A DNA stretch of 38,213 bases from Loktanella atrilutea (GTDB lineage Bacteria > Pseudomonadota > Alphaproteobacteria > Rhodobacterales > Rhodobacteraceae), in the NCBI RefSeq assembly GCF_900128995.1, contig NZ_FQUE01000017.1:1-38213 (forward strand), read 5' to 3'. Position numbers and translations under genes: made by a program. This document shows, in pieces, positions 4,813 through 38,213 of this stretch (its first letter is position 1; each line of letters starts with the position of its first letter). Below the pieces are notes generated by a model that did not search any database, was not told the DNA's origin, and saw nothing but the letters and a program-made list of their open reading frames with translations.

Positions 4813-5127
4813 TGACGCTGCATGCGATGTGGCGCACGAATACGCCTTTCAGGGAGGCAAAGATGGCGTAACGCAGCCAAAGATACGAATACGTCGCTGA
4901 TCTTCAGCACGACGGAGTGCGTCCTTCCGGGACGCACAGCGAGGGTAAGATCGCTCCCGGGCGTGCGGCAACAGACCGCGCACACCACTTCGATCCACCC
5001 GACCCTAAACGCAAACATGCGGCGTCCTCAGCGACGACCGCGGAGAGAACCCAAGAGCCCGGCACGTATGATGAACCGCAAAAAGGTCAGCACTTGACGA
5101 GGGCGATTAGAGAACGCCCCGGGACAC
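4813..5127 (+). repeat. long direct repeat, copy A
   Basis: This ~315-base segment recurs at 22964-23278 in the same orientation with roughly nine of ten bases identical by eye. Conserved blocks include 'CACGAATACGCCTTTCAGGG', 'GGACGC.CAGCGAGGGT' and a long perfect stretch around 5003-5110. Both copies lie directly upstream of an IS66-type transposase tail. No family-like protein is evident in any frame. The copies bracket about 18 kb of polysaccharide genes. It could be part of a degenerate IS66-like element or an unrelated repeat that travelled with it. Confidence 0.8.
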
Positions 5128-7296: not shown

Positions 7297-8808
7297 TCAG
7301 CGGCGGAGGATTTGCAGCACCTTTGCCACATCGTCTCGCAGCCCCGCGTCGCTCATCAGCCGCAGGGCATAAAGCAGGGCCAGAACCGCCACGACCACAA
7401 GCGCCTCCTGCAGTGCATAATCCAGCGTTAGCATCCGGCGCACGGCCATCAGCAGCGCTAGCGATAAGGTCGCGAACAGCGCCTCGCCCAGTAGCGCACT
7501 ACGCAGTGAGGCCAGTGTCAGTGGTGTGCAGCGCAACACCAGCGCCGCTAGGATCGGTCCCTGCACGAAGGCCAGCGTCACTACATAGGCCGCGACCAAA
7601 CCGACCACCCCCAGTCGGCTACCGATGAACAGCGCCAGGATCAACAGCGAGGTGCCGAAGATTCGGAACTTGAACAGGGCCTTGCTTTGCCCGCAAGCGA
7701 CCATGACCCAGCTGAAGCTGCTCAGCGTCAGGGCGGTCAGCGGCAGCAGGCCAAGCCAGGCCAGGATCGGCGCCGCCGCGGTCCAGTCCGATCCCAGCAT
7801 GACGCGTACCAGCACATCCGCACAGGAACAGAAGATCAGGCCGATCGGCACCATAATCAGGTTCGCCCGGCTGATCTGCCGCACGTACATCGCCCGAAAG
7901 GCCGCCGGATCGCCCTGCAACCGGCTCAGCGCGGGGATAAAGGCCCCGGACAAGGGCGATGCGATCCGCCGCAGCGGCATCTGCGCGATGGTCTGCGAGC
8001 GGAAGAACAGCGCCGCGTCGATCTGGGTAAACATCCGCCCGATAACGATGACCTGCATGTTACGGGCGAATTCCCCCAGCAGCCGCTCTCCGGCCAGGAA
8101 TCCGCCGAAGTTCAGCGCCGCCCGCGCCTCGCCAAAGCGGCAGCTTAGCGGGCTCGACGGCAGCCAGCGCGACACTACCAACAGGTAGATCAGGTTCAGG
8201 AACTCGGCCAGCACCAGCTGGATCGCCAGCGCCCAGTACCCGGCCCCCGCCATCGCCGCCAGAATGGCGATCCCCGAGGCCGCGAAGGTTGCGCCAAGAC
8301 TGCCGACCTCGATCTGGCGAATCCGCATCTGACGCCGTAGGACAGCCACATATTGCGCCGTCAGCACCGAAAAGAAAATGTAAGGCGACATGCCGATGAA
8401 TACAGCCGTCGTCTCCGGGGTGTCATAGAACCGGGCGGCGGGCACGCCTAGCAGGGCCACGATGATGGCAAGGCTCAGCCCCAGCGCCACGTTGGTCCAC
8501 AGCAGGGTCGAGGCCAGACGGTGGGTCACATGGGGACGCTGCACCACGGCCTGTGCCAGGCCGAATTCGGACAGGCCCGATGCGATCAGCACCGCCGGCA
8601 TGGCCATGGCGACGATCCCCTGCTGGGCCGGCGGCACCAGACGCGCCAGCATGGCGGTCGATCCCAGCGCCACGGCAATCTTGGCCACGGCGAACAGCAT
8701 GACCGTGACTGCCGACCGCCCGGTCTGCCCTTCTAGCCCCCGGCCCAGGGCACTGACGTCAAAGAACCGGTCGCGGGGATCGGCCTGATCTGGGTCAACG
8801 GGGATCAT
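7297..8808 (-). CDS. Wzx-type polysaccharide flippase (MOP superfamily)
   Basis: A protein of about 503 residues with a dozen or more hydrophobic helices. It resembles the Polysacc_synt/WzxC branch of MOP exporters: 'LFAVAKIAVALGSTAMLARL', 'GIVAMAMPAVLIASGLSEFG', 'QAVVQRP', and 'RIASPLSGAFIPALSRLQGD' in the middle. Such proteins move undecaprenyl-linked repeat units across the inner membrane. The open frame begins at a TTG at 8832; I prefer the ATG at 8808, which has AGGA eight bases upstream (an ATG at 8817 is also possible). It lies downstream of the SGNH hydrolase gene on the same strand. The 290 bp after its stop are GC-rich with hairpins but no clear terminator. Confidence 0.9.
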   Translation of the reverse strand: MIPVDPDQADPRDRFFDVSALGRGLEGQTGRSAVTVMLFAVAKIAVALGSTAMLARLVPPAQQGIVAMAMPAVLIASGLSEFGLAQAVVQRPHVTHRLASTLLWTNVALGLSLAIIVALLGVPAARFYDTPETTAVFIGMSPYIFFSVLTAQYVAVLRRQMRIRQIEVGSLGATFAASGIAILAAMAGAGYWALAIQLVLAEFLNLIYLLVVSRWLPSSPLSCRFGEARAALNFGGFLAGERLLGEFARNMQVIVIGRMFTQIDAALFFRSQTIAQMPLRRIASPLSGAFIPALSRLQGDPAAFRAMYVRQISRANLIMVPIGLIFCSCADVLVRVMLGSDWTAAAPILAWLGLLPLTALTLSSFSWVMVACGQSKALFKFRIFGTSLLILALFIGSRLGVVGLVAAYVVTLAFVQGPILAALVLRCTPLTLASLRSALLGEALFATLSLALLMAVRRMLTLDYALQEALVVVAVLALLYALRLMSDAGLRDDVAKVLQILRR

Positions 8809-8896
8809 GTCGGTCATCCTGAAACGCGTCAATCCCGCCGGATTGCACTGTTGGGCGAGAGCTGTAAACGCCTAAAGCGCGCCGCACAGCCCCCGG

Positions 8897-11480: not shown

Positions 11481-12361
11481 GAGAATAGCGCCCGGCCGCG
11501 CAAATAAGCGGCATAGGCAAGATAACGCGGATTGCCGGGCGTGGCGCGCAGGGCCAGTGCGGCGTGTCGCGCGGCCGCAGGCCAGTCCCTGAACATGCGA
11601 TAGCCGCCGGCCAGCCGGTGATGGTGCCGCGCCAAGGCCACCGGATAGCGCGCCAGAAGTGTGGCATGTTTCGCCAGCACGTATTCCTGCGCCGCCAGCC
11701 GCTTGCGGCTGGACCGGGTGATCGAATTGTCCGACATCCGCTGCACCACCAGATCCGCATCGACAAAGGCGACCGGCCCCTGCTGGGCCACCCGCAGCAT
11801 CAGATCCCAGTCCACAAGGGCGGTCAGGTCCGCGTCGAACCCGCCTACCGTCGCGAACACATCGCGCCGCACGACCAGCATCTGGGTCGAGATATAGCTG
11901 CCTTTGGTCAGGCTGGGCAGGATATCGCCCTCCAGCGGGTGGATGTCCGGACCCGGAAACCGGGCCTGCATCTGGGTGTCTGGGCGGGCATCCGCCTTGA
12001 CCAGCATGCCGCAATAGGCAGCCACGAAATCGCTGCCCTCCAGCCGCGCCATCTGGCGGCGCAGCTTGTCCGGCATCCAGATATCATCGCTGTCCTGAAA
12101 CGCGATCCAGGGCGCCTGCGTCAGGGCCACACCGTGGTTGCGCGCCGCCGAGGGCCCGCGCGGGCCAGGATTGATGCCGATGCTCAGGCGCGGATCAGCG
12201 ATGCCGCGCAGCACCTCCAGCGTGCGGTCGTCCGAGGCATCATCGACCGCCACCAGCTCGAAGTCAGTGAAATCCTGATCCAGCACGCTCTGCACCGCCT
12301 CGGCGACCGTGTCCTCGCGGTTGTGGCAGGGGATCACGACGCTGACCTTGGGGATGTTCAT
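11477..12361 (-). CDS. family 2 glycosyltransferase
   Basis: This 294-residue GT2 enzyme has 'KVSVVIPCHNREDTVAEAVQ' at the N-terminus, 'LVAVDDASDDRT' near residue 36, 'GPSAARNHG' near 69 and the metal-binding DSDD at 90-93. A 'VDWDLMLRVAQQG' motif in the second half corresponds to the acceptor-side ED/WD region. The C-terminal third is rich in Ala, Arg and His and resembles a short helical repeat. Both ends overlap neighbours by ATGA (12358-12361 with the polymerase gene, 11477-11480 with the beta-helix gene), so the three are one translationally coupled unit. Confidence 0.92.
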   Translation of the reverse strand: MNIPKVSVVIPCHNREDTVAEAVQSVLDQDFTDFELVAVDDASDDRTLEVLRGIADPRLSIGINPGPRGPSAARNHGVALTQAPWIAFQDSDDIWMPDKLRRQMARLEGSDFVAAYCGMLVKADARPDTQMQARFPGPDIHPLEGDILPSLTKGSYISTQMLVVRRDVFATVGGFDADLTALVDWDLMLRVAQQGPVAFVDADLVVQRMSDNSITRSSRKRLAAQEYVLAKHATLLARYPVALARHHHRLAGGYRMFRDWPAAARHAALALRATPGNPRYLAYAAYLRGRALFS

Positions 12362-13761
12362 ACGCGGCCCTGCTCGGTTGTTTCGCCCTGTCGCCGAGAC
12401 AGGGTCTGGGATCTCTGTGTGGAACCGGCGCGCGCCGGGCGCGGCGCAAAGCGCGAATAGAGTGGCCCGGAGGCGGCCACTTCAGTCTGTGCGGTGATGT
12501 CGTCATGTCCGTCCTGCGGCGCATAGGCATACATCCATGCCCCGGCACCGATGTAGAACATCACGAAGACCGACATCGTGCCCCAGACGTGGACTGTCAC
12601 CATGGTAAAGCTGATGCCGGCCAAGGCGATGGCATGGCCGATGCGGATCGCCAGCGCCTGGGGATCGGTGATCCGGGCCCGCGCCATCAGCACGAAATGC
12701 GACAGCAGCGCCAGTACCAGAAAGCTTACACCGACGAACCCGTAACGCATGGCCGTCAGCAGCCAGAAATTATCCACCGAGGCGGTCACCCAGAACGGCC
12801 GTGGCCAGTCGTTGAAGCCGATCCCGAAGAACGGACTTCCCTTCACCGCCGCCCATCCCGCGTCGAAGATGGCGATCCGAGTGTATCCGGTCCCGGGGTT
12901 GAAGGTCAGCGTGTCGATCAGGATCGTCACCGGGGTGCGGTTGGACAGCAGGTCGATCACCACATAGCCGACCACCGTCAGGATCAGCAGCAGCTTCCAG
13001 CGTCCCCTCATGATCCAGCCCCAGGCCAGCATGCTCAGCTGCAGCCCGCAGGCCATCAGCGGTGCCGAGGACAGCGACAGCATCGTGGTGAAGATCGACA
13101 GGGACGCGCCAAAGCCGATCTTCAGCAGGTTGCCACGCGCCATCTTGATGAAATTGGCCAGCGTCAGCGAACAGAACAGTCCCCAGAGGATCGGATGGTC
13201 GAAGACCACATAGACCCGCTCCAGCCCCATCCGCCCATAGGCGCTGTCGCCCCGGAAGGGCGTCTGGAACACCGGCCGCAACAGGTCGGGAATGATCAGC
13301 TTGCCGGTGACGGCCTCGACAAGCGCAAAGGGCAGCAGGACGATGAGCGCGATCATCATGATCCGGAACAATAGCCGGTATCCGGTAATATCCCGGATCA
13401 GGACCCGCCCCACGAAGTAGCCGCCGATCAGCTCGACCGCGGTGATCGCCGCAAAGGGAATGCGGTTGGTGCCATGCACGGCGATCAGGGCTATGAAGAT
13501 CCAGACCCCGTGCAGCACAAACAGCAGATCGACCGCCGTAAAGCGCCCAATCTGGCCCGAGATGATGCGGGCCGCATAGGGAAAGATGACGATCAGCAGG
13601 AAGATCCGGTTCGGCGACAACCGCACCCCTGCGATCTCGAAAGCGATGGGGGTCAGCAGCGTGATCATGAAGAGGATCAGCAAGGGAGCTGACAGCTGGG
13701 TCCCGGCCCCCTGCATCCCCTGACGCAAAGCGCCTGAAGAAGGCGGAACCAGAACTGTCAC
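12358..13761 (-). CDS. Wzy/WaaL-type O-antigen polymerase or ligase family membrane protein
   Basis: This 467-residue protein has about ten to twelve hydrophobic helices. The first is 'LLILFMITLLTPIAFEIAGV', and a large periplasmic loop in the second half contains 'NPGTGYTRIAIFDAGWAAVK' and 'FFGIGFNDW'. The latter matches the G-x-G signature loop of the Wzy_C/O-antigen ligase fold. The C-terminus is a soluble Arg/Gln-rich tail. The start is a GTG at 13761 with GAGG eight bases upstream. As first gene of the coupled minus-strand operon beside a Wzx flippase, it is the likely polymerase of the exopolysaccharide repeat unit. Sequence divergence in this family prevents naming the linkage. Confidence 0.88.
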   Translation of the reverse strand: MTVLVPPSSGALRQGMQGAGTQLSAPLLILFMITLLTPIAFEIAGVRLSPNRIFLLIVIFPYAARIISGQIGRFTAVDLLFVLHGVWIFIALIAVHGTNRIPFAAITAVELIGGYFVGRVLIRDITGYRLLFRIMMIALIVLLPFALVEAVTGKLIIPDLLRPVFQTPFRGDSAYGRMGLERVYVVFDHPILWGLFCSLTLANFIKMARGNLLKIGFGASLSIFTTMLSLSSAPLMACGLQLSMLAWGWIMRGRWKLLLILTVVGYVVIDLLSNRTPVTILIDTLTFNPGTGYTRIAIFDAGWAAVKGSPFFGIGFNDWPRPFWVTASVDNFWLLTAMRYGFVGVSFLVLALLSHFVLMARARITDPQALAIRIGHAIALAGISFTMVTVHVWGTMSVFVMFYIGAGAWMYAYAPQDGHDDITAQTEVAASGPLYSRFAPRPARAGSTQRSQTLSRRQGETTEQGRV

Positions 13762-22963: not shown

Positions 22964-23278
22964 TGACGCCGGATGCGATGAGGCGCACGAATACGCCTTT
23001 CAGGGAGGCAGCGATGGCGTAACGCAGCCAACGATAAGAATATGTCGCTGATCTTCAGCATGACGGAATGCGTCCCGCCGGGACGCGCAGCGAGGGTGAG
23101 ATCGCTCCAGGGCATGCGGCACACGGACCGCGCACACCACTTCGATTCATCCGAACCTGAACGCAAACATGCGGCGTCCTCAGCGACGACCGCGGAGAGA
23201 ACCCAAGAGCCCGGCACGCATGATGAACCGCAAAAAGGTCAGCACTTGACGAGGGCGATTAGAGAACCCCGGGGCACA
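22964..23278 (+). repeat. long direct repeat, copy B
   Basis: Second copy of the ~315-base segment at 4813-5127, same orientation. Differences are scattered substitutions and a few single-base indels (for example GAACGCCCCGGGAC in A against GAACCCCGGGGC in B). It begins about 210 bp upstream of the beta-helix gene start and is followed by an IS66 transposase tail, as in copy A. The 22752-22963 stretch before it shows no gene and presumably holds the promoter of the beta-helix gene. Confidence 0.8.
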
Positions 23279-25958: not shown

Positions 25959-27566
25959 ATGTCTGATACTGACAGTATGCGCCGGCTTGCCCTGACAAGG
26001 GCACAGTCTTTCAATCCGATCGGCCTGCTGCTGTTTGTCGCCCTTCTGGCTTTTGCACTACCTGTTTTCTGGCTCGGCTTCCAGTTGCTGGTGGCGGCCT
26101 GGATGACGCCGGAATACAGCCATGGTCCGCTGATTCCGCTGATCTCGCTTTATTTATTCCTGCGTGAATTGCGGCACGGCCCACAACAACCCGTTGCGGG
26201 TCCCGTCAACCGGATACCGGGCATCATAGTGATTGTACTGGGTCTTGTTTTGGGCATTTTCGGCAATCTGGTCCAGATCCCGGACATCGTGGCCTATGCC
26301 TTTATCGTCTGGGTCGGTGGGGTCGTGCTGACAGGCTTTGGCTGGGCGCGCGGGCGCACCCATCAACTCCCGGTGCTACATCTGGTCTTCATGCTGCCAC
26401 TGCCCCAGTTCATCTACTGGAAACTGACGATCTTCCTGCAGCTCGTCTCGTCGGAACTTGGCGTCTGGTTTATCCAGATGGCGGGCATCCCCGTCTTCCT
26501 CGAAGGCAATGTCATCGACCTCGGCATCTACAAGCTGCAGGTGGCCGAGGCCTGTTCGGGCCTGCGTTATCTGTTCCCGATCCTGTCGTTCAGCTATCTG
26601 TTTGCGATCCTGTATCGCGGGCCGTTCTGGCACAAGGTCGTTATGTTCCTGATGGCAGCGCCACTGACCATCTTCATGAACTCGTTCCGGATCGGCATGA
26701 TCGGCGTGCTGGTCAACAGCTACGGCATCGGCCAGGCTGAAGGCTTCCTACACTTCTTCGAAGGCTGGGTGATCTTCGGTGCCTGTATCGCGATTCTGTT
26801 CCTGACGGCCGTGCTGCTGCAACGCCTGACCCCCAGCCCACTGGGCCTGCGCGACACCATCGACATGGACTTCGACGGGTTGGGCGCACAAGCTGGGCGC
26901 ATCCTGTCCATGGCCCCGTCCCGCGGCGTGATCGCGGCGATCGTAATCACGCTCACGGTCTCGGCCCTGTTCATCTTGACGCCGCCGCCGGACCGGGTCA
27001 TGCCCGACCGCGACCGCTTTTCCATGTTCCCGCGCGAAGTTGCGGGCTGGAATTCCTACATCATCCCGCTGGAGCCCGACGTGGAACTGGTGCTGAAGGC
27101 GTCGGACTACATCAACGCGGTCTATACCAACCCGGCTGCACCAGATACCTACGTGAATTTCTTCTCGGCCTACTATGACAAGCAGACCGAAGGGGCCGGC
27201 ATCCATTCGCCAGAGGTCTGCCTCCCCGTCGGCGGGTGGGAGATCTTTTCGATCGACCAGTCGCCGGTGTCCTTCCCGGACACGGTCTACGGCACCTTTG
27301 AGGTGAACCGCGCCGTGATCGAAAAGGGCCTGACGCGGCAGCTGGTCTATTACTGGTTCGAACAGCGCGGCACGCGGATGACCAACGACTACATGGCCAA
27401 GATCGACGTGGTCTACGACAGCCTGACCAGAGGGCGCACGGACGGCGCGCTGGTTCGCTTTGTCACGCCGATCGCCGCAGGCGAAGACGAGGCGGCCGCC
27501 GATGCCCGTCTGCAAGGTTTCATGGCGGACCTGCTGCCCCGGCTGCCCCGGTTCATTCCCGAATAG
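25959..27566 (+). CDS. xrtD: exosortase fused to EpsI domain (XrtD-like)
   Basis: This 535-residue membrane protein carries the exosortase N-terminal motif 'YSHGPL' at 53-58 and the catalytic triad of the family: Cys199 in 'EACSGLRY', Arg244 in 'NSFRIG' and His265 in 'FLHFFEGW'. It has about eight membrane helices. After a linker and another helix (about 323-341) comes an EpsI domain with '[16 protein letters not shown]' at 415-430 and 'YYWFEQRG'. Exosortases cleave CTERM-tagged proteins in the inner membrane during EPS-linked export. The exosortase-EpsI fusion of this size in Rhodobacteraceae-type genomes fits the VPLPA-CTERM enzyme XrtD; that subtype is inferred. No CTERM substrate is encoded in this window. 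GGAG lies 13 bases upstream of the ATG. Confidence 0.88.
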
Positions 27567-27607: not shown

Positions 27608-28258
27608 ATGACGATACCCCCCTCCCCTGCCCCGGTGCGGGCCTTGACCGCACCGGTCTGGGTCCTGTTGACGCTCTGCATCCTGCCAGAGCTGGTCTTT
27701 CAGCTAAACGACCACGGTATGGTGGGGCCTGCGAGACTGCGCGAAATGGCGTTCAGCCTGGGATCGTTCCAGTCTGATCTGGTCAACAGCAGGCTAAGCC
27801 GCTTTCCGGGGCAGTCCTTTACGATGTTCATGACCTACATGTTTCTGCACACCGGCCTGTCGCATCTGGTGGTGAACATGATCGGGCTGCTCTGGCTCTG
27901 GCGTCTGGTAACGGGAACCCGGTCGGCCGGCGACGCCGCCTTGTTCTTCGTCATGGCGGGGGTCGGCGCGGCCATGATCTTCGACATTCTGGGGAGCCCG
28001 CATACGGCCATGGTCGGCGCATCGGGGGCGCTGTTCGGTCTGCTGGGAGTCTACGGCGTGGACAGTCGACTGTTCTGGTCGGACACGCGCCACACACGTC
28101 TGGCCCAGCGTCTTTTGCGTCTGGTCGTGATCGCAGTAATCCTGATCGCGTCGGATCTCGTCAGTCGGGTTGCCACCGGCACCAGTGTCGCCTGGCAGGC
28201 CCACACGGGCGGTTTCCTGACCGGTGCCTTCGCAGCAATGATCTGGCCTTACAGATAG
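27608..28258 (+). CDS. rhomboid-family intramembrane serine protease
   Basis: This 216-residue polytopic protein has the rhomboid signatures: 'HTGLSHLVVNM' (His86, Asn90), 'VGASGALFGLLG' with catalytic Ser139, and 'WQAHTGGFLTG' with catalytic His199. Six hydrophobic segments are visible. Rhomboids cleave transmembrane helices inside the bilayer. It follows the exosortase gene by 41 bp on the same strand, so the two membrane proteases are probably cotranscribed. A rhombosortase role is conceivable, but those enzymes normally pair with GlyGly-CTERM proteins, none of which is seen here. The ribosome-binding site is weak. Confidence 0.9.
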   Translation: MTIPPSPAPVRALTAPVWVLLTLCILPELVFQLNDHGMVGPARLREMAFSLGSFQSDLVNSRLSRFPGQSFTMFMTYMFLHTGLSHLVVNMIGLLWLWRLVTGTRSAGDAALFFVMAGVGAAMIFDILGSPHTAMVGASGALFGLLGVYGVDSRLFWSDTRHTRLAQRLLRLVVIAVILIASDLVSRVATGTSVAWQAHTGGFLTGAFAAMIWPYR

Positions 28259-28371
28259 ATAAACTTTGCGGCAGTCTTCCCACAGCTCCCCCTGTCTCGG
28301 CTTATTTCAGCCGCACTTGCGTGGCCTTCTGATTCGACCGTTCCGCGCATCTAACATCGGAAGGAGTCGAT

Positions 28372-28461
28372 ATGATCATCGCAAGCATGTTGGGAGGTGT
28401 GACCGGAGTCGTCGCCTTCATTCTGATCGGCCTGTGGTGTGGCGTCAGCCTGCCGGTTTGA
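28372..28461 (+). CDS. 29-residue single-helix membrane peptide (putative)
   Basis: A short frame preceded by a strong GGAAGGAG six bases before the ATG. The peptide begins MIIASMLGG and is almost entirely hydrophobic (one helix, with Trp22 and Cys23). Its stop overlaps the start of the next small frame (TGATG). The good ribosome-binding site and the coupling support real translation. Family unknown; small toxins, regulators of membrane proteases, and chance frames are alternatives. Confidence 0.5.
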   Translation: MIIASMLGGVTGVVAFILIGLWCGVSLPV

Positions 28462-28562
28462 TGGCGCTCTATATCATCGGCAGAGCCGTCAGTTTCGTCA
28501 TCACCCTGCTGGTCGCGATGCGAACGCAGAGGATACTGACTGATCCGTTCCTTATCCCCTGA
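28461..28562 (+). CDS. 33-residue membrane peptide (putative), coupled to the preceding one
   Basis: Starts at the ATG that shares its A with the preceding TGA. The product has a helix of about 18 hydrophobic residues (ALYIIGRAVSFVITLLVA), then a basic and polar tail (MRTQRILTD). If the two frames were once one gene, a one-base change would join them into a two-helix hairpin of about 62 residues. No family recognised. Confidence 0.42.
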   Translation: MALYIIGRAVSFVITLLVAMRTQRILTDPFLIP

Positions 28563-28648
28563 CACAAGAACACAGTTCACCCGGACGGATTTCCGACCTT
28601 TAATACAGAAATTATGAACCACAGCTATCGGTTAACTACTAAATATCG

Positions 28649-28957: not shown

Positions 28958-29644
28958 GTGCCCGTCATCACCTTCGCTAACCCCAAGGGCGGGGCCGGCA
29001 AAACGACCGCCGCATTGCTGCTGGCGTCCGAACTCGCGGCCCGCAAGGCCGACATCGTCATCATTGACGCAGACCCCGAACGCTGGATTTCTCAATGGGC
29101 GGCGCTGCCGGGCAAGCCCGACAACATTCGCATCATCACCGACGTGACCGAAGACGGCATCGTCGAGCAGATCGACACCGCCGCGGCGCGCACGCAATTT
29201 GTCATTATTGACCTAGAAGGCACCGCCAGCCTGATGGTTGCTAATGCTATTGGAATGTCAGACCTTGTCGTGATCCCGACCCAGGGCGGATCGATGGACG
29301 CCAAGGGTGCCGCCAAAACAATCCGCCTAATCCGCAACCAAGAACGCATGGCGCGCCGGCCCATTGCGCACGGTGTGCTGATGACTCGGACCAGCGCCGC
29401 CGTTGCGTCCCGATCCTACAAGAACGTGCGCCAGCAACTGGCCGAGGCTGGCATCCCCGTCTTCGCCACGCCTATCGTCGAACGTGCGGCTTACCGCGAT
29501 ATCTTCGACTATGGTGGGCTGCTACGTGATTTGCCCACGGCGCAGGTGTCCAATCTGGAAAACGCCCACAAGAATGCGCAGGCCTTTACTGCCGAGGTGC
29601 TAACGCAACTGAAGGCCAGTCTGCAACAGCGGGGGGCCGCGTGA
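28958..29644 (+). CDS. parA: ParA-family partition ATPase
   Basis: This 228-residue ATPase lacks an N-terminal DNA-binding domain, as in the ParF/VirC1 (type Ib) group. It has the deviant Walker A 'KGGAGKTT' at 10-17, the A' motif 'DADP' at 37-40 and Walker B 'FVIIDLEG' at 81-88. The start is GTG at 28958 with AAGGA seven bases upstream; the family N-terminus (MPVITFANPKGG) confirms it. It moves plasmid copies along the nucleoid with a small centromere-binding partner, which is encoded by the next gene (TGATG coupling). The GC-rich cassette sits between two EPS-export segments, marking the locus as plasmid- or chromid-borne. Confidence 0.9.
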   Translation: MPVITFANPKGGAGKTTAALLLASELAARKADIVIIDADPERWISQWAALPGKPDNIRIITDVTEDGIVEQIDTAAARTQFVIIDLEGTASLMVANAIGMSDLVVIPTQGGSMDAKGAAKTIRLIRNQERMARRPIAHGVLMTRTSAAVASRSYKNVRQQLAEAGIPVFATPIVERAAYRDIFDYGGLLRDLPTAQVSNLENAHKNAQAFTAEVLTQLKASLQQRGAA

Positions 29645-30112: not shown

Positions 30113-31324
30113 ATGACCGACCGTACCAAGCGCCACATTCTGATCGTCGTTGAAAACCTGCCCGTTCCGTTGGACCGTCGTGTCTGGCTGGAAGCCACCA
30201 CGCTGAAGCAGGCCGGCTACGACGTTTCCGTCATCTGCCCAATGGGGCGCGGCTGGACCGCGCGCCATGAGGTGATAGAAGGCGTGCACATCCACCGCCA
30301 CACCGAGCCGCCGGAGGCGCATTCCGGTGCAGTGGCCTATGCTCGAGAATATGGCCACGCAATTCGACACTGGTTCCGGCTGGCAGGTGTCGTGTGGAAA
30401 CGCCGCCCTTTCGACGTGATCCAGGGCTGCAACCCACCAGACCTGATCTTTCTACTAGCGTTATGGTATCGCCTGTGGGGCGTGCGCTACATGTTCGATC
30501 ATCACGATGTTTGCCCCGAGCTCTTCGAGGCAAAGTTCGGCAAAAAGGGCTTGCTGTATCGCGTCATGCTAATCTGGGAACGTCTGACCTTTGCCACCGC
30601 CAGCGTGTCGATGGCCACCAACGGCAGCTTCCGCGACATTGCAATCCGGCGCGGCCAGATGGACCCCGACGACGTCTTCGTCGTCCGATCCGCCCCCCGA
30701 ATTGAGAATTTTATTCCCGGTCCCGGCAATCCCGACATGCGCAAGGGGGCAGGGACCGTCATGGGATATGTCGGCGTGATCGGTCAACAGGAAGGCATGG
30801 ACCTGCTGGTCTTGGCCGCCGATCACCTGATCCGCAAACTGGGCCGGACGGATGTGCATTTCCTGATCGTGGGCTTCGGTCCGCATCTGGAAGAGGTACA
30901 GCGCGACGTGGCGGCCCACGCGCTCGAGGATCACTTCACCTTTACCGGCGCGCTTTATGGCGAAGATCTGCTGGCGGCACTGAACGTGATTGACATCGGT
31001 GTGTCGCCGGATCCTAAAAACGCGATGAACGACATCTCAACCATGAATAAGGTCATGGAATACATGACCCTAGAGAAGCCGGTGGTGCAGTTCGACCTTA
31101 CCGAAGGTCGCGTGTCCGCGGGCAATGCGGGGCTTTATGCCTGCGCCAACGATCCCATCGATTTCGCCAAAAAGATAGCGCAGCTGATGGACGATCCCAA
31201 CGGTCGGGCACGCATGGGAGCCATGGGGCGCAAGCGGGTGCTGAACGACCTGTCATGGACTCATACGGAACCGCAGCTGCTGGCCGCATACGACCGGATT
31301 TACGCCAAGATGGGGCGTCAGTAG
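30113..31324 (+). CDS. family 4 glycosyltransferase
   Basis: This 403-residue GT-B enzyme has the N-terminal domain 'ILIVVENLPVPLDRRVWLEA' and 'YMFDHHDVCPELFEAKFGKK' near 127. The C-terminal donor-binding domain begins 'VMGYVGVIGQQEGMD' near 216, with 'LIVGFGPHLEEV' near 251 and the donor-site region 'MNKVMEYMTLEKPVVQFD' near 311. It resembles EpsD/WbpH-like transferases of exopolysaccharide loci with exosortase systems. It lies just after the partition cassette on the same strand (100 bp gap) and converges on the beta-barrel gene with a 7-bp overlap of coding ends. Confidence 0.92.
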   Translation: MTDRTKRHILIVVENLPVPLDRRVWLEATTLKQAGYDVSVICPMGRGWTARHEVIEGVHIHRHTEPPEAHSGAVAYAREYGHAIRHWFRLAGVVWKRRPFDVIQGCNPPDLIFLLALWYRLWGVRYMFDHHDVCPELFEAKFGKKGLLYRVMLIWERLTFATASVSMATNGSFRDIAIRRGQMDPDDVFVVRSAPRIENFIPGPGNPDMRKGAGTVMGYVGVIGQQEGMDLLVLAADHLIRKLGRTDVHFLIVGFGPHLEEVQRDVAAHALEDHFTFTGALYGEDLLAALNVIDIGVSPDPKNAMNDISTMNKVMEYMTLEKPVVQFDLTEGRVSAGNAGLYACANDPIDFAKKIAQLMDDPNGRARMGAMGRKRVLNDLSWTHTEPQLLAAYDRIYAKMGRQ

Positions 31325-32577
31325 CGCGTCACAAAAGTCCGACGCAGTTCCACGAAGACTGTGTTGGACTGCGCAGTGTCGCCGGGCGTGTCGTCAACAC
31401 TGCGATAGCGATAGCCCGCCTGCGCGGCCCAGTCCTCGGTCAGTGCGCGGCTTACACTCGCCTGAAGGCCGGCGCTGAGCGATGTGGCATCGGACCCGAC
31501 ATCCTTGGCCTGCGCCAGATCGAAGCCGATCTGCAGCGAGGTCAGGGGCGTCAGCGCCCGATCGTAGCTGCCGGACACCTGCGTCGTCACCTGCGACGTA
31601 TCCTGTTCGTTCAGAGACGACACCTGTCGCGACAGATCGAAGCTCAGGCTGCCGTTTGGCAGCTCGCGACGGGCGCCGAGTTGGGCGGTCAGCAGGATCT
31701 GGTCGTCAAAGGTGCGGGTCACGCCGACATTTCCTGACACGGCCCCCGCAGGCAGAGCCAGGCTACGCCCGAAGGACAGGCTGTATTCCTGCCCCTCATT
31801 CAGATCGGTGATAGCGACGCCCGCCGTAAGTGGACCAAGGGGGCGGTCGATGCTGATCCCGGTGCTGAGGGTCAGGGTCTCGCTCCGGTCGGCGGCTTGG
31901 GGGGTTTCGAAGATGCTGTAGCGCAAGCTGGTCCGCAACTGCGCGGCCTTGGTTAGATCGAAGGACGCTGTGCCGTCCAACGTTAGCCGGCTATTATCCT
32001 CCAGCCCAGTGCCGTCCAGCCCCGTGGCGGTGCCGCCGGTATATATGTTGTCGACGTAGGTCGCCCCGATCCCGTAAGTCGCACGCGTGGTCTGACCCCA
32101 GGTCAGACTGCCTGATACGGTCGTGGCGCGCCGGGTCGCATCGCCGGTAATGAAACCGGTTAGGCCCGTGAAGGGATCGAAAACGGCTACATCCTGCTGC
32201 GACAAATCGTTGCTTTGGACGCTGGCCGACAGATTCAAGGTCGCATTTGCGCTGCTGCGGTCATAGCTAGTAGACAGACGCGGCGATGCGATGGTGACAT
32301 CGGTGCCCGCCGCGGCGCGCCGTACGTCGGCGGCAGCGTCGATCGCAAAGGATGATGCGGGCGTGGCCGTCAACAGACCGAAGGTCAGCCCCGCATAGGG
32401 CGTCACGCGCGCCTTCGGTCCGGTGTCCGTAAATTCGACGTTGTCCGTCGCCTCGACGCCCAAGGCTGCACCGAAGGTCAACTGGATGCCGCCCGTCTCA
32501 TAGGTTTGACCGGTCATCACCGTCGGGACGGCCGCGGCGCATATCGCCACAACACAGGCAGGGCGGAGAGATGTCAC
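31318..32577 (-). CDS. outer-membrane beta-barrel protein of the EPS/exosortase locus
   Basis: The start is a GTG at 32577, with AAGGA seven bases upstream and a signal peptide (about 20 residues, 'RPACVVAICAAAVPTVMTG'); the longer frame to 32688 lacks signal features. The ~419-residue mature product is a series of alternating amphipathic strands ('GIQLTFGAALGVEATDNVEF', 'NATLNLSASVQSNDLS', 'TVSGSLTWGQTTRATYGIGA') ending with an aromatic residue. This is typical of the OMP_b-brl/EpsL-like barrels found with PEP-CTERM type EPS clusters. A role as an export or assembly porin is likely. The stop overlaps the convergent GT4 gene by 7 bp. It probably shares a transcript with the Wza-type gene upstream. 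Confidence 0.82.
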   Translation of the reverse strand: MTSLRPACVVAICAAAVPTVMTGQTYETGGIQLTFGAALGVEATDNVEFTDTGPKARVTPYAGLTFGLLTATPASSFAIDAAADVRRAAAGTDVTIASPRLSTSYDRSSANATLNLSASVQSNDLSQQDVAVFDPFTGLTGFITGDATRRATTVSGSLTWGQTTRATYGIGATYVDNIYTGGTATGLDGTGLEDNSRLTLDGTASFDLTKAAQLRTSLRYSIFETPQAADRSETLTLSTGISIDRPLGPLTAGVAITDLNEGQEYSLSFGRSLALPAGAVSGNVGVTRTFDDQILLTAQLGARRELPNGSLSFDLSRQVSSLNEQDTSQVTTQVSGSYDRALTPLTSLQIGFDLAQAKDVGSDATSLSAGLQASVSRALTEDWAAQAGYRYRSVDDTPGDTAQSNTVFVELRRTFVTRY

Positions 32578-32650
32578 GCAATCATCCTTGTCTTCAACGT
32601 CGGACTGTCTAGGGGTACCTTGCCTCGCGACCCGGAAGCCCCGACAGGGT

Positions 32651-33328
32651 TCATTCGAACAGGTGGCGCTGCGGCACGACGATAACATCGCCGTCCGCCA
32701 GCGTGGACCGCCCGGCCGAGATCACGCCGGCCTCGATTGCCGGATAGTTCAGGGTATAGACCTGCTCGATGCCGCGGGCATCGGCGCGACGCAGTTGCAC
32801 GCGCTTGGTCGCCGCGAACTTGGTGAACCCGCCCATGATGGCGAACATCTGCAAAACGGTGGTGCCGGGGGCGACGTCGATCTTGCCCAGCTTGTTGGCT
32901 TCGCCCACTATATAGACGGAAATGACCGGGTCCTCGGCCGGGGGGGCCGGCGGAGCTTGCACAATGGGGCGCACCTCACGCTCGGCCAGCTTCTCGAGCG
33001 ACACGAACACCGTCGGAGGTGCGGCAAAGCTGGGTGCCAGCCGCCCGACCAGATCGCCCTGCACCGCATCAATTGTGCGGCCTGAGACGCTGAGGGTGCC
33101 GGCTTGGGGGAAGCTGATGCGCCCGTCGGGGGCGACCAGTACGTTGCGGTTCAGACTGGGGTCCTCCAGCACCTCGACCCGCAGCGTGTCCCCGGCGCGC
33201 AGACCATAGGTCTGCTGCGCGGCAAGGGGGCCTGCACCAAAGACCGTAACCAAGGTCAGGCACAGCCCGATCATCAAGGCCAGCAGGCAGCGCGGGTCGG
33301 TGTGGGACGGCTTTGTCATGTCGGTCAT
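32651..33328 (-). CDS. Wza-type polysaccharide export protein
   Basis: About 225 residues from the ATG at 33328, chosen over the frame start at 33367 because GGGAG lies eight bases upstream. An N-terminal signal segment (about 14-37) has no lipobox Cys. It is followed by the Poly_export domain ('YGLRAGDTLRVEVLEDPSLN', 'VAPDGRISFPQAGTLSVSGR', 'PPTVFVSLE') and an SLBB domain ('ISVYIVGEANKLGKIDVAPG', 'VLQMFAIMGGFTKFAA'). Wza-like proteins form the periplasmic and outer-membrane channel for the polymer. No Wzc co-polymerase/kinase partner is in the window. The beta-barrel gene starts 73 bp downstream on the same strand. Confidence 0.93.
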   Translation of the reverse strand: MTDMTKPSHTDPRCLLALMIGLCLTLVTVFGAGPLAAQQTYGLRAGDTLRVEVLEDPSLNRNVLVAPDGRISFPQAGTLSVSGRTIDAVQGDLVGRLAPSFAAPPTVFVSLEKLAEREVRPIVQAPPAPPAEDPVISVYIVGEANKLGKIDVAPGTTVLQMFAIMGGFTKFAATKRVQLRRADARGIEQVYTLNYPAIEAGVISAGRSTLADGDVIVVPQRHLFE

Positions 33329-33485
33329 CTCGATATCTCCCGGGATGGGCAGCTTATAAAGCTTCAAGTCTGTCTAAGCGCATGCCTTATGAGGACCAAC
33401 GGAAAAATGGTCTGGTCCGTTTATGCACGCGACGAGCCCAGCAGTAGTGCCAGACTTGCAACATTCTCAAGTGCTCGTGCCGCCG

Positions 33486-35981
33486 TCAGGGATTCTGCGG
33501 GGCAGCGTTGGCTAAGCCGGCAAGCGTATCCCTGGCCGTCTGGAACTGGGGCAGGGTGCGACCTGCCGACAGCTCGACGGCGCGGGTTAGCACAGTCCGG
33601 GCCTGTTTGGTCTGGCCCTTGGCGGCATAGGCCAAGCCCAGATGCACCTGCACCAGCGCATCGTCTGGCAGACCATTGGCTGCAAGTTCCAAATAGGGCA
33701 GGGCATCGTCGACGTTGCCGCGCTTGAAGGTGATCCAACCATAGGTATCCGCAAAGGCAGGCTCGGTCGTGTCCCGCAGGCGCCGGGAGATGGTGGCGGC
33801 CCGCGTCAGGCTCTCGTCGTCGTCGCGGTAGCTGGCGATCATGCTAGCTAGGTTGTTGGCGATGATGATGTTATCGCTGTTCCGGGCGTAAAGATCTTCG
33901 TAAACGGCGATGGCTTCGTCGATCCTGTCGGCCTTCTCCAGAATCCCCGCCTTGATCAGCAGCAGCGTGGACGGGTTGTCGACAACGGGCAGGGCCGCCT
34001 CGATGACCTGTGCCGCGTCTTCTATCTGGCCGTCAGCCATCATGAGCCCGACAAGGAACTGCGCCGGCAGCTCGCTTTGCGGGAAGCGGGCGACCAAGGC
34101 GCGATACTTCTTTTCGGCCGCAGCGATGTCGCCTTCGAGCGAAGACAGGCTGGCGTCGATCATGGCCAAATTGGCATCGTCGGGAGAGGCTGCCAACAGA
34201 CCGTCGAGGTAGTTGCGCGCCTCGGCGATCTTGCCGGCGCGAATCTGGGTCTGCAGGATTAGAACGACGGCGCGGACACTGGCTGAGTCGGATGAGACGG
34301 TGTCTGGAGTGACCTGCGTTTCGAGAATTGCAAGACTGTCGGCTGTGCGATTCTGCCCCTGCAAGATGGCCGCCTGCAGCAGTGGCGCCGCGGTCTGCGC
34401 AGCGGGACTGTCAATCTGGCGCAGATCGTCGATGGTGCGCTGTGCCAAGGCAAAATCACGGTTCTTTATGTAGAGATCGGCAAGGCTGGTCAGTACATCG
34501 ATGTTGTCGGGCGCCTGCCGCCGGGCGTCCTCGAGCACGCTGATCGCTGCCGTTACCTGATCGCGGCTGACCAGAAAGTCGGCGTAAAACAGAGATTCGG
34601 CCGGGGCCGCATTAGACACCTGTACCGCCGCTGCAAGACGTTCCCCCGCAAGGGCCATGTCACCGTCGCGCTGGTGGGCCTGCGCCATCAATGTCAGGGT
34701 CTGTGAGTCCTGTGGGTTCTGATCCAGCGCCCGACGCAGGGCGACGATAGCATCACCAGTCTTGTCGTCAGAAATCATCCAGCCCGCCTGCAGCTTCAGC
34801 GCCTCGACGTTGCTGGAATCCGCCGCTAGGATCGTGGTCACGAGGGTGTCCGCATCGTCACGGTTTCCGGTCTGGTCCAGCATTTTTGCCAGCTCGACCT
34901 GTAGCTGCCGCATCTTCTCGCTCTCCGGAGCACCATCCAGGGCTTCACGCATCTGCGCGATTCCAGACTCAGTCGCACCCGTCTTGAAGTCTAGCGCGGC
35001 TAGGGCTCCGGCATATAGACGACCGGCTTCCGTTCCCATATTCGCGTCGCGCAGGGCAGTCAGTTCCACGCGGGCCGCATCCGGACCTTGCGTGGCGCGC
35101 AGGAATTCCACGACTGTCAGATGGCCATCAGTTTCCCTGCTGTCTATAGGGCCTGCTAGATTGCGCAAATATGCGATAGCACCGTCATTATCGTTCTGGC
35201 TGACATACCAACGAACTAGATTCTGACGTACGTCTACATTGTCGGGAAACAGCGTTGACATCTGTTTCAGCTGCTCACCAACCGCGGCCATGTCGGTGCC
35301 TTGACTTAGCAACTGCAGCTTAATCATCTGCAGATTCAGGCTCAACGGGTCAGAGGCTAAGGCCGCGTTCACTGCGGCGATTGCCTCCTCGGTACGGTCG
35401 CCATTAATCAAGTTGTCCAAGTCGACCCGGATCAGGCTCGCGTTACCTTGAGTCACGCCAGCTGCCCGCTGGGTGGCCAGCAGTGTACGCGCATTCTCCG
35501 CAACCGCGTTGGCAGTAACCGCGTCGCCATCCACCATGGCCTTGCGATAGGCCAGCACGATAGCAATCGCTTGAGACCTGGGATCATCCGGGCCTAGGTC
35601 GATAGCTGCCTGCCCATGACGTTCCGCCTCAGCCCAGTCACCCCGATCAATCGCGATTTCTGCTAGTTGCTGACGTACCACCAGCGTGTCGGGATATTGC
35701 TCGATGAGGCGCAAGAATTGACTGTAAGCTTGCCGCACATCCCCTTGCTTGAGCAACAGATTTGCATAAGTCTGACGCGCCTCGAAATGAAAACCATCAA
35801 GATTGAAGACGTTGCGAAATTCAATCATGGCGCGTGACTCATCGCCAGCCGCCAGCAGTGCCAGACCGGACTTATAGTAGTCTTCCGCCCTTTCTTCGCT
35901 AGTTTTGCAGCCTGTCAGCATTAGCGTGGCAGACAGGATCATGACAGCCATGGCTGGTCGGGTCGAAAAGGTTATGGTCAA
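33486..35981 (-). CDS. prsT: TPR-repeat lipoprotein, PrsT-like (exosortase/EPS system)
   Basis: This 831-residue protein has a lipoprotein signal peptide: 'ILSATLMLTGC', with Cys25 as lipidation site. A continuous array of more than fifteen TPR-like helix pairs runs to the C-terminus (for example 'YYKSGLALLAAGDESRAMIE', 'AYSQFLRLIEQYPDTLVVRQ', 'EAIAVYEDLYARNSDNIIIA', 'GLPDDALVQVHLGLAYAAKG'). Length and architecture match PrsT, the TPR lipoprotein of PEP-CTERM/exosortase EPS loci, a likely scaffold between inner- and outer-membrane export parts. The start is TTG at 35981; an in-frame ATG ten codons later would leave a short signal peptide. The 3' half is more GC-rich than the 5' half. It lies 157 bp upstream of the Wza-type gene. 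Confidence 0.85.
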   Translation of the reverse strand: MTITFSTRPAMAVMILSATLMLTGCKTSEERAEDYYKSGLALLAAGDESRAMIEFRNVFNLDGFHFEARQTYANLLLKQGDVRQAYSQFLRLIEQYPDTLVVRQQLAEIAIDRGDWAEAERHGQAAIDLGPDDPRSQAIAIVLAYRKAMVDGDAVTANAVAENARTLLATQRAAGVTQGNASLIRVDLDNLINGDRTEEAIAAVNAALASDPLSLNLQMIKLQLLSQGTDMAAVGEQLKQMSTLFPDNVDVRQNLVRWYVSQNDNDGAIAYLRNLAGPIDSRETDGHLTVVEFLRATQGPDAARVELTALRDANMGTEAGRLYAGALAALDFKTGATESGIAQMREALDGAPESEKMRQLQVELAKMLDQTGNRDDADTLVTTILAADSSNVEALKLQAGWMISDDKTGDAIVALRRALDQNPQDSQTLTLMAQAHQRDGDMALAGERLAAAVQVSNAAPAESLFYADFLVSRDQVTAAISVLEDARRQAPDNIDVLTSLADLYIKNRDFALAQRTIDDLRQIDSPAAQTAAPLLQAAILQGQNRTADSLAILETQVTPDTVSSDSASVRAVVLILQTQIRAGKIAEARNYLDGLLAASPDDANLAMIDASLSSLEGDIAAAEKKYRALVARFPQSELPAQFLVGLMMADGQIEDAAQVIEAALPVVDNPSTLLLIKAGILEKADRIDEAIAVYEDLYARNSDNIIIANNLASMIASYRDDDESLTRAATISRRLRDTTEPAFADTYGWITFKRGNVDDALPYLELAANGLPDDALVQVHLGLAYAAKGQTKQARTVLTRAVELSAGRTLPQFQTARDTLAGLANAAPQNP

Positions 35982-36079
35982 TGCATTGCCTGATTTGAAA
36001 AGGATGCTGATTCAGCTTACGGCCATCTTACAACTCGAGGGCTGAAAATGCATTAAATATTCCGGTGAGTGGCGTGAAC

Positions 36080-36377
36080 TCAGTATCTCGTTCCACGAAA
36101 CATAATAATGAACGTGGCAATCAGGATGCGCAAGTCTGTCACGATGGACACGTTCCGAACCTAATCTGTGTCGAGAAACCACACTGGCCAAGAAGCTAGA
36201 GGCCCCTGCCACAAAATTAGTCTGGCTGAGCATCATCAAACGGGGGCCGATCGGACTCATGTCTCCCGGCAGCATGTTCTTCCACAACTGAAGTAGCTTA
36301 TTCAGCGACAGCCGCAGCAGAAAGCGAACGAAAGTCGTAATTCGCGGATTAGCTTTCAGCTTCTGTGTGGTGGTCCA
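36080..36377 (-). pseudogene. ExoY/WcaJ-type priming sugar-phosphate transferase, 3' relic
   Basis: From 36377 leftwards the minus strand reads 'WTTTQKLKANPRITTFVRFL', 'LRLSLNKLLQLWKNMLPGDM' and 'SPIGPRLMMLSQ'. This is the bacterial sugar transferase core (family: K-L-x-x-D-P-R-I-T-x-F-G-x-F-L-R, L-P-Q-L-W-N-V-L-x-G-D-M-S-x-V-G-P-R-P). Further down, in another frame, 'WPVWFLDTD' is followed by a stop and then 'VRNVSIVTDLRILIATFIIM' to 'FRGTRY' and TGA at 36080-36082, the family's C-terminal end. So the gene has at least one frameshift, one nonsense codon and several lost consensus residues, and its 5' half was removed at the IS3-type element boundary. Such enzymes load the first sugar phosphate onto undecaprenyl phosphate. 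Confidence 0.82.
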
Positions 36378-36706
36378 TGAATAGCCCCGTTTATCGTGGA
36401 CGCCTTCTTAGCTAAATCTTAAGCAAGGAGGCCATGATGAGCAGCAACACTTACAGTGACAAATTCAAGCGGGACGCGGTCGCGCAGATCATCGAACGGG
36501 GTTACCCGGTCAGGGAGGTTTCCGATCGCCTCGGCGTCAACGCGTATTCGCTCTACGTGTGGAAGAAGAAGTTCGCAAACGTCGTCTCGGGCGATGCATC
36601 GAGTGATGCAGAGATCCGGCGTCTGAAGCGGGAACTGGCACGGGTGACGGAGGAGCGCGACATCTTAAAAAACCGTCCTGGGTCGCAGCCCGCCTGTGCG
36701 GGGTAG
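36378..36706 (+). mobile_element. IS3-family element remnant: left end and truncated OrfA
   Basis: The sequence from TGAATAGCCCCG at 36378 resembles the terminal repeat of IS3-type elements. It is followed by AAGGAGGCC and an ATG at 36434. The 90-codon frame (36434-36706) encodes OrfA: a helix-turn-helix ('FKRDAVAQIIERGYPVREVS', 'LGVNAYSLYVWKKKF') and the leucine-zipper region ('EIRRLKRELARVTEERDILK'). Family homology stops at about 36672; the last ten residues are foreign. OrfB with the DDE domain is missing. This element cut the 5' half from the ExoY-type gene. Confidence 0.85.
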
Positions 36707-36890: not shown

Positions 36891-37372
36891 ATGGCAAAGG
36901 AGTCTACCGGTGGCCACCCGGACCTAAAGATGGTCAATCCCAGCGCGGCCGCGATCGATATCGGATCGAAGATGCACATGGCGGCGGTGAACCCTGACAG
37001 CACGGCTATGCCCGTGCGCGCGTTCGGCACCTTCACGCATGACCTGAACGATCTGGCCGTCTGGTTCCGATCCTGCGGCGTGACCAGCGTGGCGATGGCA
37101 TCCACCGGGGTCTACTGGATCCCGGCCTTCGAGATTCTCGAGCAGCACGGGTTCAACGTGATCCCGGTGAACGCGCGCTACGCCAAAAATGTGCCAGGCC
37201 GGAAGACCGACGTCAGCGACGCCGGATGGCTGCGACAGCTTCATTCCTATGGCCTATTGCGCGGCAGTTTCCGTCCCGAGGCCGAGATCGCCACCCTGCA
37301 GGCCTACATGCGGCAGCGCGAAAGACTGGTCGAATACGCCGCAGCCCATATTCAGCACATGCAGAAGGTCCT
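36891..37372 (+). pseudogene. IS110-family transposase, N-terminal fragment cut by IS21-type element
   Basis: From the ATG at 36891 the product contains 'AAAIDIGSKMHMAAVNP', 'VTSVAMASTGVYWIPAFEIL', 'VIPVNARYAKNVPGRKTDVS' and 'GLLRGSFRPEAEIATLQAYM', the DEDD domain of an IS110 transposase. It is a different lineage from the two at 5600-7005. In 'KTDVSDAGW' the last residue replaces the usual Q or R. Homology ends after 'AHIQHMQKVL' at about 37372, exactly where the IS21-type left end begins; the frame then runs into a stop at 37412. The 184 bp before it (36707-36890) hold no recognisable gene. Confidence 0.85.
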
Positions 37373-37432
37373 TGTTGATTTCCACCCAGAAGTGACCCGG
37401 GTAGCGGCGTAATTTCCATTGAGAATTGACCC
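37373..37432 (+). repeat. IS21-family left end with two subterminal repeats
   Basis: The element begins at TGTTGATTTCC. Two 21-base copies start at 37378 and 37412, both of the form ATTTCCA......GA.C-type ending TGACCC, with 17 of 21 bases identical. Multiple such transposase-binding repeats are characteristic of IS21 ends. The right end lies outside the window. Confidence 0.8.
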
Positions 37433-37485
37433 ATGTGACCCTTCCCCCAGCGGCATGCGTAGCGGGGGACATTGGAGTAATACAC

Positions 37486-38213
37486 ATGGGACTTTTGAAC
37501 ATCATCCGACGTATGGCTTTGCGCGAGAAGTTGCCCCTGCGCGAGATCGCGCGTCGCACGGGCATGTCGCGCAACACGATCAAGAAGTATCTGAACGCAG
37601 GCACGATCGAGCCGCAGTTCGCTACGCCGGAACGGCATAGCAAGCTCGATCCCTTCGCTGAGAAGTTGGCTGGCTGGCTGAAGACGGAGGCCGTCAAGTC
37701 GCGCAAACAGCGGCGGACGCTGAAGCAGATGCATGCGGATCTGGTGGTTCTCGGATTTGACGGGTCCTACAATCGCGTTGCGGCTTTTGCCCGTGACTGG
37801 CGGGTTGCGGCTTTTGCCCGTGACTGGCGGGCCGATCGGCAGCGGGATCAGCGAACGACAGGGCGCGGCACCTTCGTGCCCCTGTCGTTTCGTCCGGGCG
37901 AGGCATTCCAGTTCGACTGGAGCGAGGATTGCGGTCTTGGGTGGCGAGCGGACGAAGCTGCAAGTTGCCCACATCAAGCTGTCGCACAGCCGGGCCTTTC
38001 TGGTCAGGGCCTATCTGCTGCAAACGCACGAGATGCTGTTCGATGCCCACTGGCATGGGTTCCGGGTCTTGGGCGGCGTCCCGGAGCGTGGCATCTACGA
38101 TAACATGCGCACCGCGGTTGACCGCGTCGGCCGCGGGAAGGACCGGCAGGTCAACATGCGCTTCCTTGCGATGGCAAACCACTACGTGTTCGATCCGGCG
38201 TTCTGCAATCCTG
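37486..38213 (+). pseudogene. istA: IS21-family transposase IstA, frameshifted and cut by window edge
   Basis: From the ATG at 37486: an N-terminal helix-turn-helix, 'LLNIIRRMALREKLPLREIA' and 'RRTGMSRNTIKKYL', then the start of the DDE domain with the first catalytic Asp in 'AFQFDWSED'. About 37930-37935 a two-base deletion shifts the frame ('GATTGCGGTC' where the family frame needs 'GATTGGGCGGTC'). The rest continues in another frame ('VAHIKLSHSRAFLVRAYLLQ', 'DAHWHGFRVLGGVPERGIYD', 'FLAMANHYVFDPAFCNP') to the window end. A 27-bp tandem duplication adds nine residues upstream. IstB would follow beyond the edge. Confidence 0.85.
37777..37830 (+). repeat. perfect 27-bp tandem duplication inside istA
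   Basis: Positions 37777-37803 are repeated exactly at 37804-37830, duplicating the nine residues VAAFARDWR in frame. It looks like a recent slippage event in an already degenerate transposase gene. Confidence 0.9.

Follow-up and report, generated by a model that had tools for sequence, protein, structure and literature searches.

A decayed sugar-phosphate transferase gene in an XrtD-type exopolysaccharide locus of Loktanella atrilutea

Small PF02397 phosphoglycosyl transferases of ExoY/PglC-like size occur in XrtD/PrsT exopolysaccharide (EPS) clusters, and the closest known system to the locus described here is of this kind, with L. salsilacus KBK07_RS16290 (NZ_CP072992.1) as an example. PF02397 is also named among the families associated with PEP-CTERM/EpsH loci in the part of the source that deals with them (PMC1569441). 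The catalytic dyad of PglC is given as D93-E94, and the D-X12-P motif is termed strictly conserved, in the relevant passages of PMC12802240; an Asp-Glu pair is described as the catalytic dyad of the superfamily in the corresponding part of PMC10519829. The relic of such a gene in L. atrilutea resembles KBK07_RS16290 in its family, its strand, its place directly upstream of prsT and the divergent AAA-Wzz-CpsD block, and differs from it in having no recognisable N-terminus, in the loss of internal stretches and of the Asp-Glu pair, and in having no open frame.

The window, that is the whole stretch of DNA analysed (38,213 bases), is the entire contig C44 of the marine bacterium Loktanella atrilutea, whose genome of 4.2 Mb is in 46 contigs. 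The locus is probably plasmid-borne: L. salsilacus, Haematobacter massiliensis and Pseudorhodobacter turbinis all have the prsT-transferase-AAA block on a plasmid. Some other genomes carry XrtD on contigs longer than 1 Mb. Neither an Rfam scan of the window at gathering thresholds nor a search for tRNA genes gave a match. A direct repeat occurs at 4813-5127 and 22964-23277 (316 aligned bases, 91.8% identical).

The transferase relic and its insertion elements

Positions 36080-36377 are a decayed part of a short PF02397 sugar-phosphate transferase gene on the minus strand. The core (36219-36377), recognised from PF02397 and by BLAST against intact homologues, corresponds roughly to residues 116-168 in the L. 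salsilacus homologue; it matches positions 65-115 of the 179 in PF02397 (E 6.1e-9, 36.1 bits, cut-off 27) and, over 58-62 residues, shows 50-53% identity to the intact proteins of L. salsilacus, Haematobacter, Pseudorhodobacter and contig C18 of the same genome. The C-terminal tail (36080-36172, minus strand; match at 36083-36172) is in a different frame from the core, has one internal stop and ends with its own stop codon at 36080-36082. Scores of 67.8 bits for 36192-36385 and 31.2 bits for 36081-36192 were reached by none of 1000 dinucleotide-preserving shuffles each (best shuffles 22.3 and 19.6 bits), so these matches are not due to chance. Core and tail stand closer together than their counterparts in the homologue, and the reading frame changes between them; the coordinates thus point to a deletion as the cause of the frame shift. 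The only open fragment is the 91-codon ORF at 36012-36287. With a head piece on contig C5 included, the relic has three stops in 111 codons, and its pieces lie on two contigs and in different frames, so that there is no uninterrupted full-length PF02397 frame. A genome-wide search for a duplicate of the relic DNA (36012-36430) returned only the relic itself, and a promoter and terminator scan at the junction found one of each, against shuffle means of 0.7 and 0.8.

Residue losses were assessed against the 52 intact members of the clade of XrtD-locus initiators, a count that leaves aside one frameshifted copy in genome G289. Eight of the 23 core positions that are invariant among these members have been lost, including both residues of the Asp-Glu pair, which is kept in 52 of 52 members, the C18 protein among them. 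This pair would correspond to the PglC dyad, as judged from the motif that it shares with WbaP alignments. Residues 1-63, which include the re-entrant membrane helix with D-X12-P, have no significant match in the frames of the window or of C5. A simple pattern for D-X12-P fits 32 of the 52 intact members, another 10 have the proline at +9 instead and 10 fit neither; the Loktanella copies (C18 and those at 17233-17958 of L026 and 18410-19108 of L015 among them) have it at +9, not +13, after the conserved Asp of the helix. Codon-position ratios were tried as evidence of drift and rejected, because relic and functional pairs were not separated (relic core against the gene of the closest relative found, G005, 0.90; C18 against G005, 0.88; L. 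salsilacus against G005, 0.80).

The relic is abutted by a truncated IS3-type element with an orfA-like ORF (36378-36706, plus strand), in which ORF 36434-36706 matches PF01527; similarity to five other plasmids begins at 36375-36378, which sets the left border of the element at about 36378. It is followed by a truncated IS110-type transposase (36891-37372, plus strand; PF01548), cut off by one end of an element (37373-38213, plus strand) that we take to be IS21-type from its two-gene look, no search having named it; the contig stops within this element. The decayed head piece lies at C5:3829-3912, beyond the AAA gene and against an IS21-type end, and has 28 codons with two stops. Over 28 residues it is 64-68% identical to four Loktanella homologues and 35-40% identical to those of Haematobacter and Pseudorhodobacter. 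On C5, a contig of 4214 bases, the genes for AAA, Wzz and CpsD have open frames of approximately full length. Both C5 and the window align with contig C6 of G005, where they flank its intact transferase gene on either side, and the window locus very likely continues on C5. The last 95 bases of C44 (window 38119-38213) are identical to the end of C43, and the end of C5 is shared with C27 (97% over about 300 bases); two IS21-type copies thus appear to be collapsed in the assembly, with the ends of C44, C43, C5 and C27 meeting in one repeat. Two copies allow two pairings of the contigs, and the split gene favours, without proving, a C44-C5 join through one IS21-type copy. No target-site duplication was seen by eye at the outer IS21-type borders, and no split gene was recognised at the flanks of the second copy (C43, C27).

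The initial annotation, made from the letters of the window alone, had read a dead priming transferase here, with its core and C-terminal end on the minus strand, split by a frameshift and a nonsense codon and with just 91 codons open. Alignment of the minus frames to the PF02397 profile agrees with this reading and places it to the base, and the three stops, the loss of frame and the missing Asp-Glu pair fit a dead enzyme. The accompanying statement that an IS3-type element had beheaded the gene holds in part: an IS3-type fragment does abut the relic, but it is one of several nested fragments, of the IS3, IS110 and IS21 types, that split the gene, and the head partly survives on C5.

The surrounding locus and the place of the initiator in relatives

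Directly downstream of the relic lies a full-length PrsT-like TPR lipoprotein gene (33486-35981, minus strand; TIGR02917 E 2.7e-60, 204 bits, below the equivalog cut-off of 312), followed by genes for a Wza-type polysaccharide export protein (32651-33367, minus; TIGR03027 E 3.3e-24, 85.5 bits, below the equivalog cut-off of 180) and an outer-membrane beta-barrel-like protein (31318-32688, minus), which has weak sub-cut-off Pfam matches and a counterpart in the same place in L. salsilacus. The plus strand encodes a GT4-family glycosyltransferase (30113-31324; TIGR04063 E 3.7e-21, below cut-off; 87% to the L. salsilacus protein), a ParA-type partition ATPase for replicon maintenance within the cluster (28958-29644; NF041546 E 7.4e-36, below cut-off) and the VPLPA-CTERM-specific exosortase XrtD (25959-27566; TIGR04152 702 bits, above the cut-off of 400). 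Directly after XrtD, 27608-28258 is rhombosortase-like (TIGR03902 41.8 bits, below the cut-off of 84). Further away are a Wzy-type polymerase/ligase-like gene (12358-13761, minus; PF04932 E 5.4e-8, 33.2 bits, above the cut-off of 31.7) and a Wzx-type flippase gene (7297-8832, minus; PF13440 E 6.3e-56). The features by which an XrtD EPS cluster is recognised are all present, namely XrtD above its cut-off, genes for EPS assembly and, within the genome, VPLPA-CTERM matches.

Preservation was judged from the eight neighbours that were compared with G005 (XrtD, GT4, the outer-membrane protein, Wza, PrsT, AAA, Wzz and CpsD), and all eight have open frames near the protein length of their relatives. 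Together they comprise 3678 codons, stretches before the start codons included, in which the stop rate of the relic would give roughly 99 stops; the frames were taken from stop to stop and are stop-free by construction, so the argument for preservation rests on their near-full length. On this ground the locus has probably been kept under selection after the transferase gene died. In G005, prsT was found split into two overlapping open frames (C6:93687-96151; L014, L007).

The usual place of the initiator was determined from 69 loci. Sixty XrtD loci were picked in score order from matches above the cut-off, which occur in 92 of 394 genomes, passing over loci that were already in the set, so lower-scoring loci are unrepresented; the other nine came from PrsT and plasmid searches. 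Loci without PrsT or AAA in the fetched stretch (27) and one with another layout were set aside, leaving 41 informative loci, a count that includes both L. salsilacus strains and excludes the window and L024 (G001, with a distant PrsT and no AAA match). The conserved order is prsT, transferase, divergent AAA ATPase, wzz and cpsD. Thirty-six of the 41 loci have a transferase gene in the interval that separates prsT from the divergent AAA gene, on the same strand as prsT; 35 of these genes are open frames of at least 200 aa that reach the C-terminus and one is a frame of 191 aa. The relic fits this position if C44 and C5 are joined as proposed, its window part standing beside prsT and its head beside AAA on C5, both collinear with C6 of G005. 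A comparison of this junction with relatives, as the initial annotation had recommended, yields full-length open copies in 35 of the 41 informative loci; the copy in G005 is intact.

The remaining five loci (G371, G289, G326, G256 and G355) come from five genera, all other than Loktanella, and have a prsT-AAA interval of just 283-517 bases without a transferase; no transferase relic was detectable in these intervals at E 0.01. Each of the five genomes has a member of the initiator clade elsewhere: on the XrtD contig in G355, G256 and G326, on other contigs only in G371, and in G289 as a frameshifted copy on the XrtD contig plus an unbroken copy on another contig. The frameshifted PF02397 gene of G289 (C25:47040-47605; L171, L173) occupies two overlapping frames and is possibly a broken initiator or a sequencing error. 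G355 carries a pair of clade initiators on its XrtD contig that point in opposite directions and lie some 8 kb from each other (C2:20124-20690 and 28052-28618; L155, L149).

Candidate substitutes and competing explanations

Four PF02397 genes without stops occur in the L. atrilutea genome, on contigs C18, C21, C26 and C36. The C18 gene (C18:48573-49139) has a full PF02397 match. In a tree of 68 of 89 rows, taken because they score more than 120 bits against the L. salsilacus protein, it clusters at 100/96 with the genes that L. salsilacus and G005 have in place; rows shorter than 180 aa and one G005 gene fragment had been left out before the 89 were assembled, and the C36 gene was too divergent to be included. 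The C18 protein, itself one of the 52, keeps every clade-invariant position, those lost from the relic included. Its identity to the G005 gene (64%) is about that of the L. salsilacus gene (67%), whereas the AAA protein is 88% identical between this genome and G005. A recent copy of the lost gene is thus a less likely origin for the C18 gene than an older duplication or an acquisition, and at 64% identity its product may use another sugar. Its pieces give the relic no clear place among the Loktanella genes: its core ranks G005 2nd, C18 21st and L. salsilacus 27th of 68, its tail ranks them 4th, 28th and 44th of 58, and only its head ranks the Loktanella copies first to fourth, of 63. C18 may belong to the replicon of the cluster, a reading that draws on VPLPA-CTERM matches and a UDP-glucose-dehydrogenase-like gene. 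Four of the six VPLPA-CTERM candidate sites in the genome (three of the six above cut-off) are on C18, two above and two below cut-off; in G005, three of five VPLPA-CTERM matches are on the EPS contig, one of the three below cut-off. The UDP-glucose-dehydrogenase-like gene of C18 is 85% identical to one on that EPS contig. C18 also has a diguanylate cyclase gene.

We consider it likely that the initiator was inactivated by insertion elements and that its function has been taken over by a same-clade gene elsewhere, most likely that on C18. On this reading, a Loktanella-like bacterium had an XrtD/EPS cluster of plasmid type, and the relic would be what remains of the small phosphoglycosyl transferase that was its original initiator. 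Nested elements of the IS3, IS110 and IS21 types would have broken the gene with the loss of parts, and both halves would then have decayed, one on either side of the nest. The locus would still make polymer, with another initiator, most likely the C18 gene, performing the first step in trans. Intact-looking neighbours and a working-looking gene of the same kind elsewhere suggest that the pathway is probably still alive and has a different starter enzyme. The initial annotation had envisaged several outcomes for a locus whose EPS/exosortase genes are otherwise well preserved, a description that is borne out by XrtD and its neighbours. The genome search that it had also proposed, with four intact PF02397 genes and one of the same clade, favours the second initiator elsewhere; rewiring onto another first sugar may also have occurred; a locus that no longer makes polymer would fit eight neighbours open over about their full length less well.

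That last outcome, a locus dead or dying for polymer and retained either for the protein sorting linked to its exosortase or because a plasmid maintenance gene sits within it, would account for an intact XrtD, for the VPLPA-CTERM matches in the genome and for the ParA gene inside the cluster; we judge it quite improbable because Wza, GT4, PrsT, AAA, Wzz and CpsD are open too, for which a sorting-only role has no obvious need, and because a same-clade initiator survives. Somewhat less improbable, although still unlikely, is that a PF02397 gene on C21, C26 or C36, rather than that on C18, assumed initiation, possibly with another first sugar. These are three further open frames of 459-481 aa, and in the part of PMC11340318 concerned with Caulobacter HfsE, PssY and PssZ, initiators can be redundant and unlinked and genes of other alphaproteobacteria cross-complement. 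But C18 alone falls within the XrtD-locus initiator clade (C36 being outside the tree), and genes of the C21 type (G003, G004) and the C26 type (G008) are present in members of the genus that have no PrsT match at E 1e-30, which suggests that they have other jobs. An assembly or sequencing error that hides a gene intact in the living strain could be imagined, the window being a whole contig that ends in a repeat, but misassembly would not give stops in both halves, internal loss and changes at eight of 23 invariant positions, and this explanation is extremely improbable. A substituted initiator in trans, most likely C18, remains our preferred reading.

Significance and comparison with known systems

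The relic is ordinary gene decay with a likely substitute. It carries a mild general point, that the initiator is a part of XrtD clusters that is sometimes missing from its place, as it also is in the five loci of other genera. A pseudogene as in-place initiator is accordingly poor ground for calling an EPS locus dead, and the Loktanella case is a testable example of initiator replacement. A broader reading, which we hold tentatively and rather doubt, is that the XrtD-cluster initiator is a swappable part that has left its conserved place in several genera, its role then passing to a gene of the same clade at another site, in many cases within one contig; the first sugar, and hence the polymer, would possibly have changed while the other machinery was kept, and the relic in Loktanella would show such a change partway through. 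If initiators are often swapped, the starting sugar of a polymer can be read less reliably from its gene cluster than is assumed.

A literature search for exosortase together with VPLPA-CTERM returned no match, which we do not take as absence from print. Among the subset of window ORFs scanned, there was neither PrsK nor PrsR. The locus resembles PEP-CTERM/EpsH loci in bringing exosortase, PrsT and EPS genes together, as set out in the portion of PMC1569441 on these loci, and differs from them in being of the XrtD/VPLPA type with plasmid-type genes. It is like the Caulobacter HfsE/PssY/PssZ system, in the aspects covered by the cited part of PMC11340318, in that a genome can have more than one initiator and an initiator can serve a locus from outside. 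Unlike in Caulobacter, the in-locus copy in L. atrilutea is a pseudogene, and another initiator would have taken its place.
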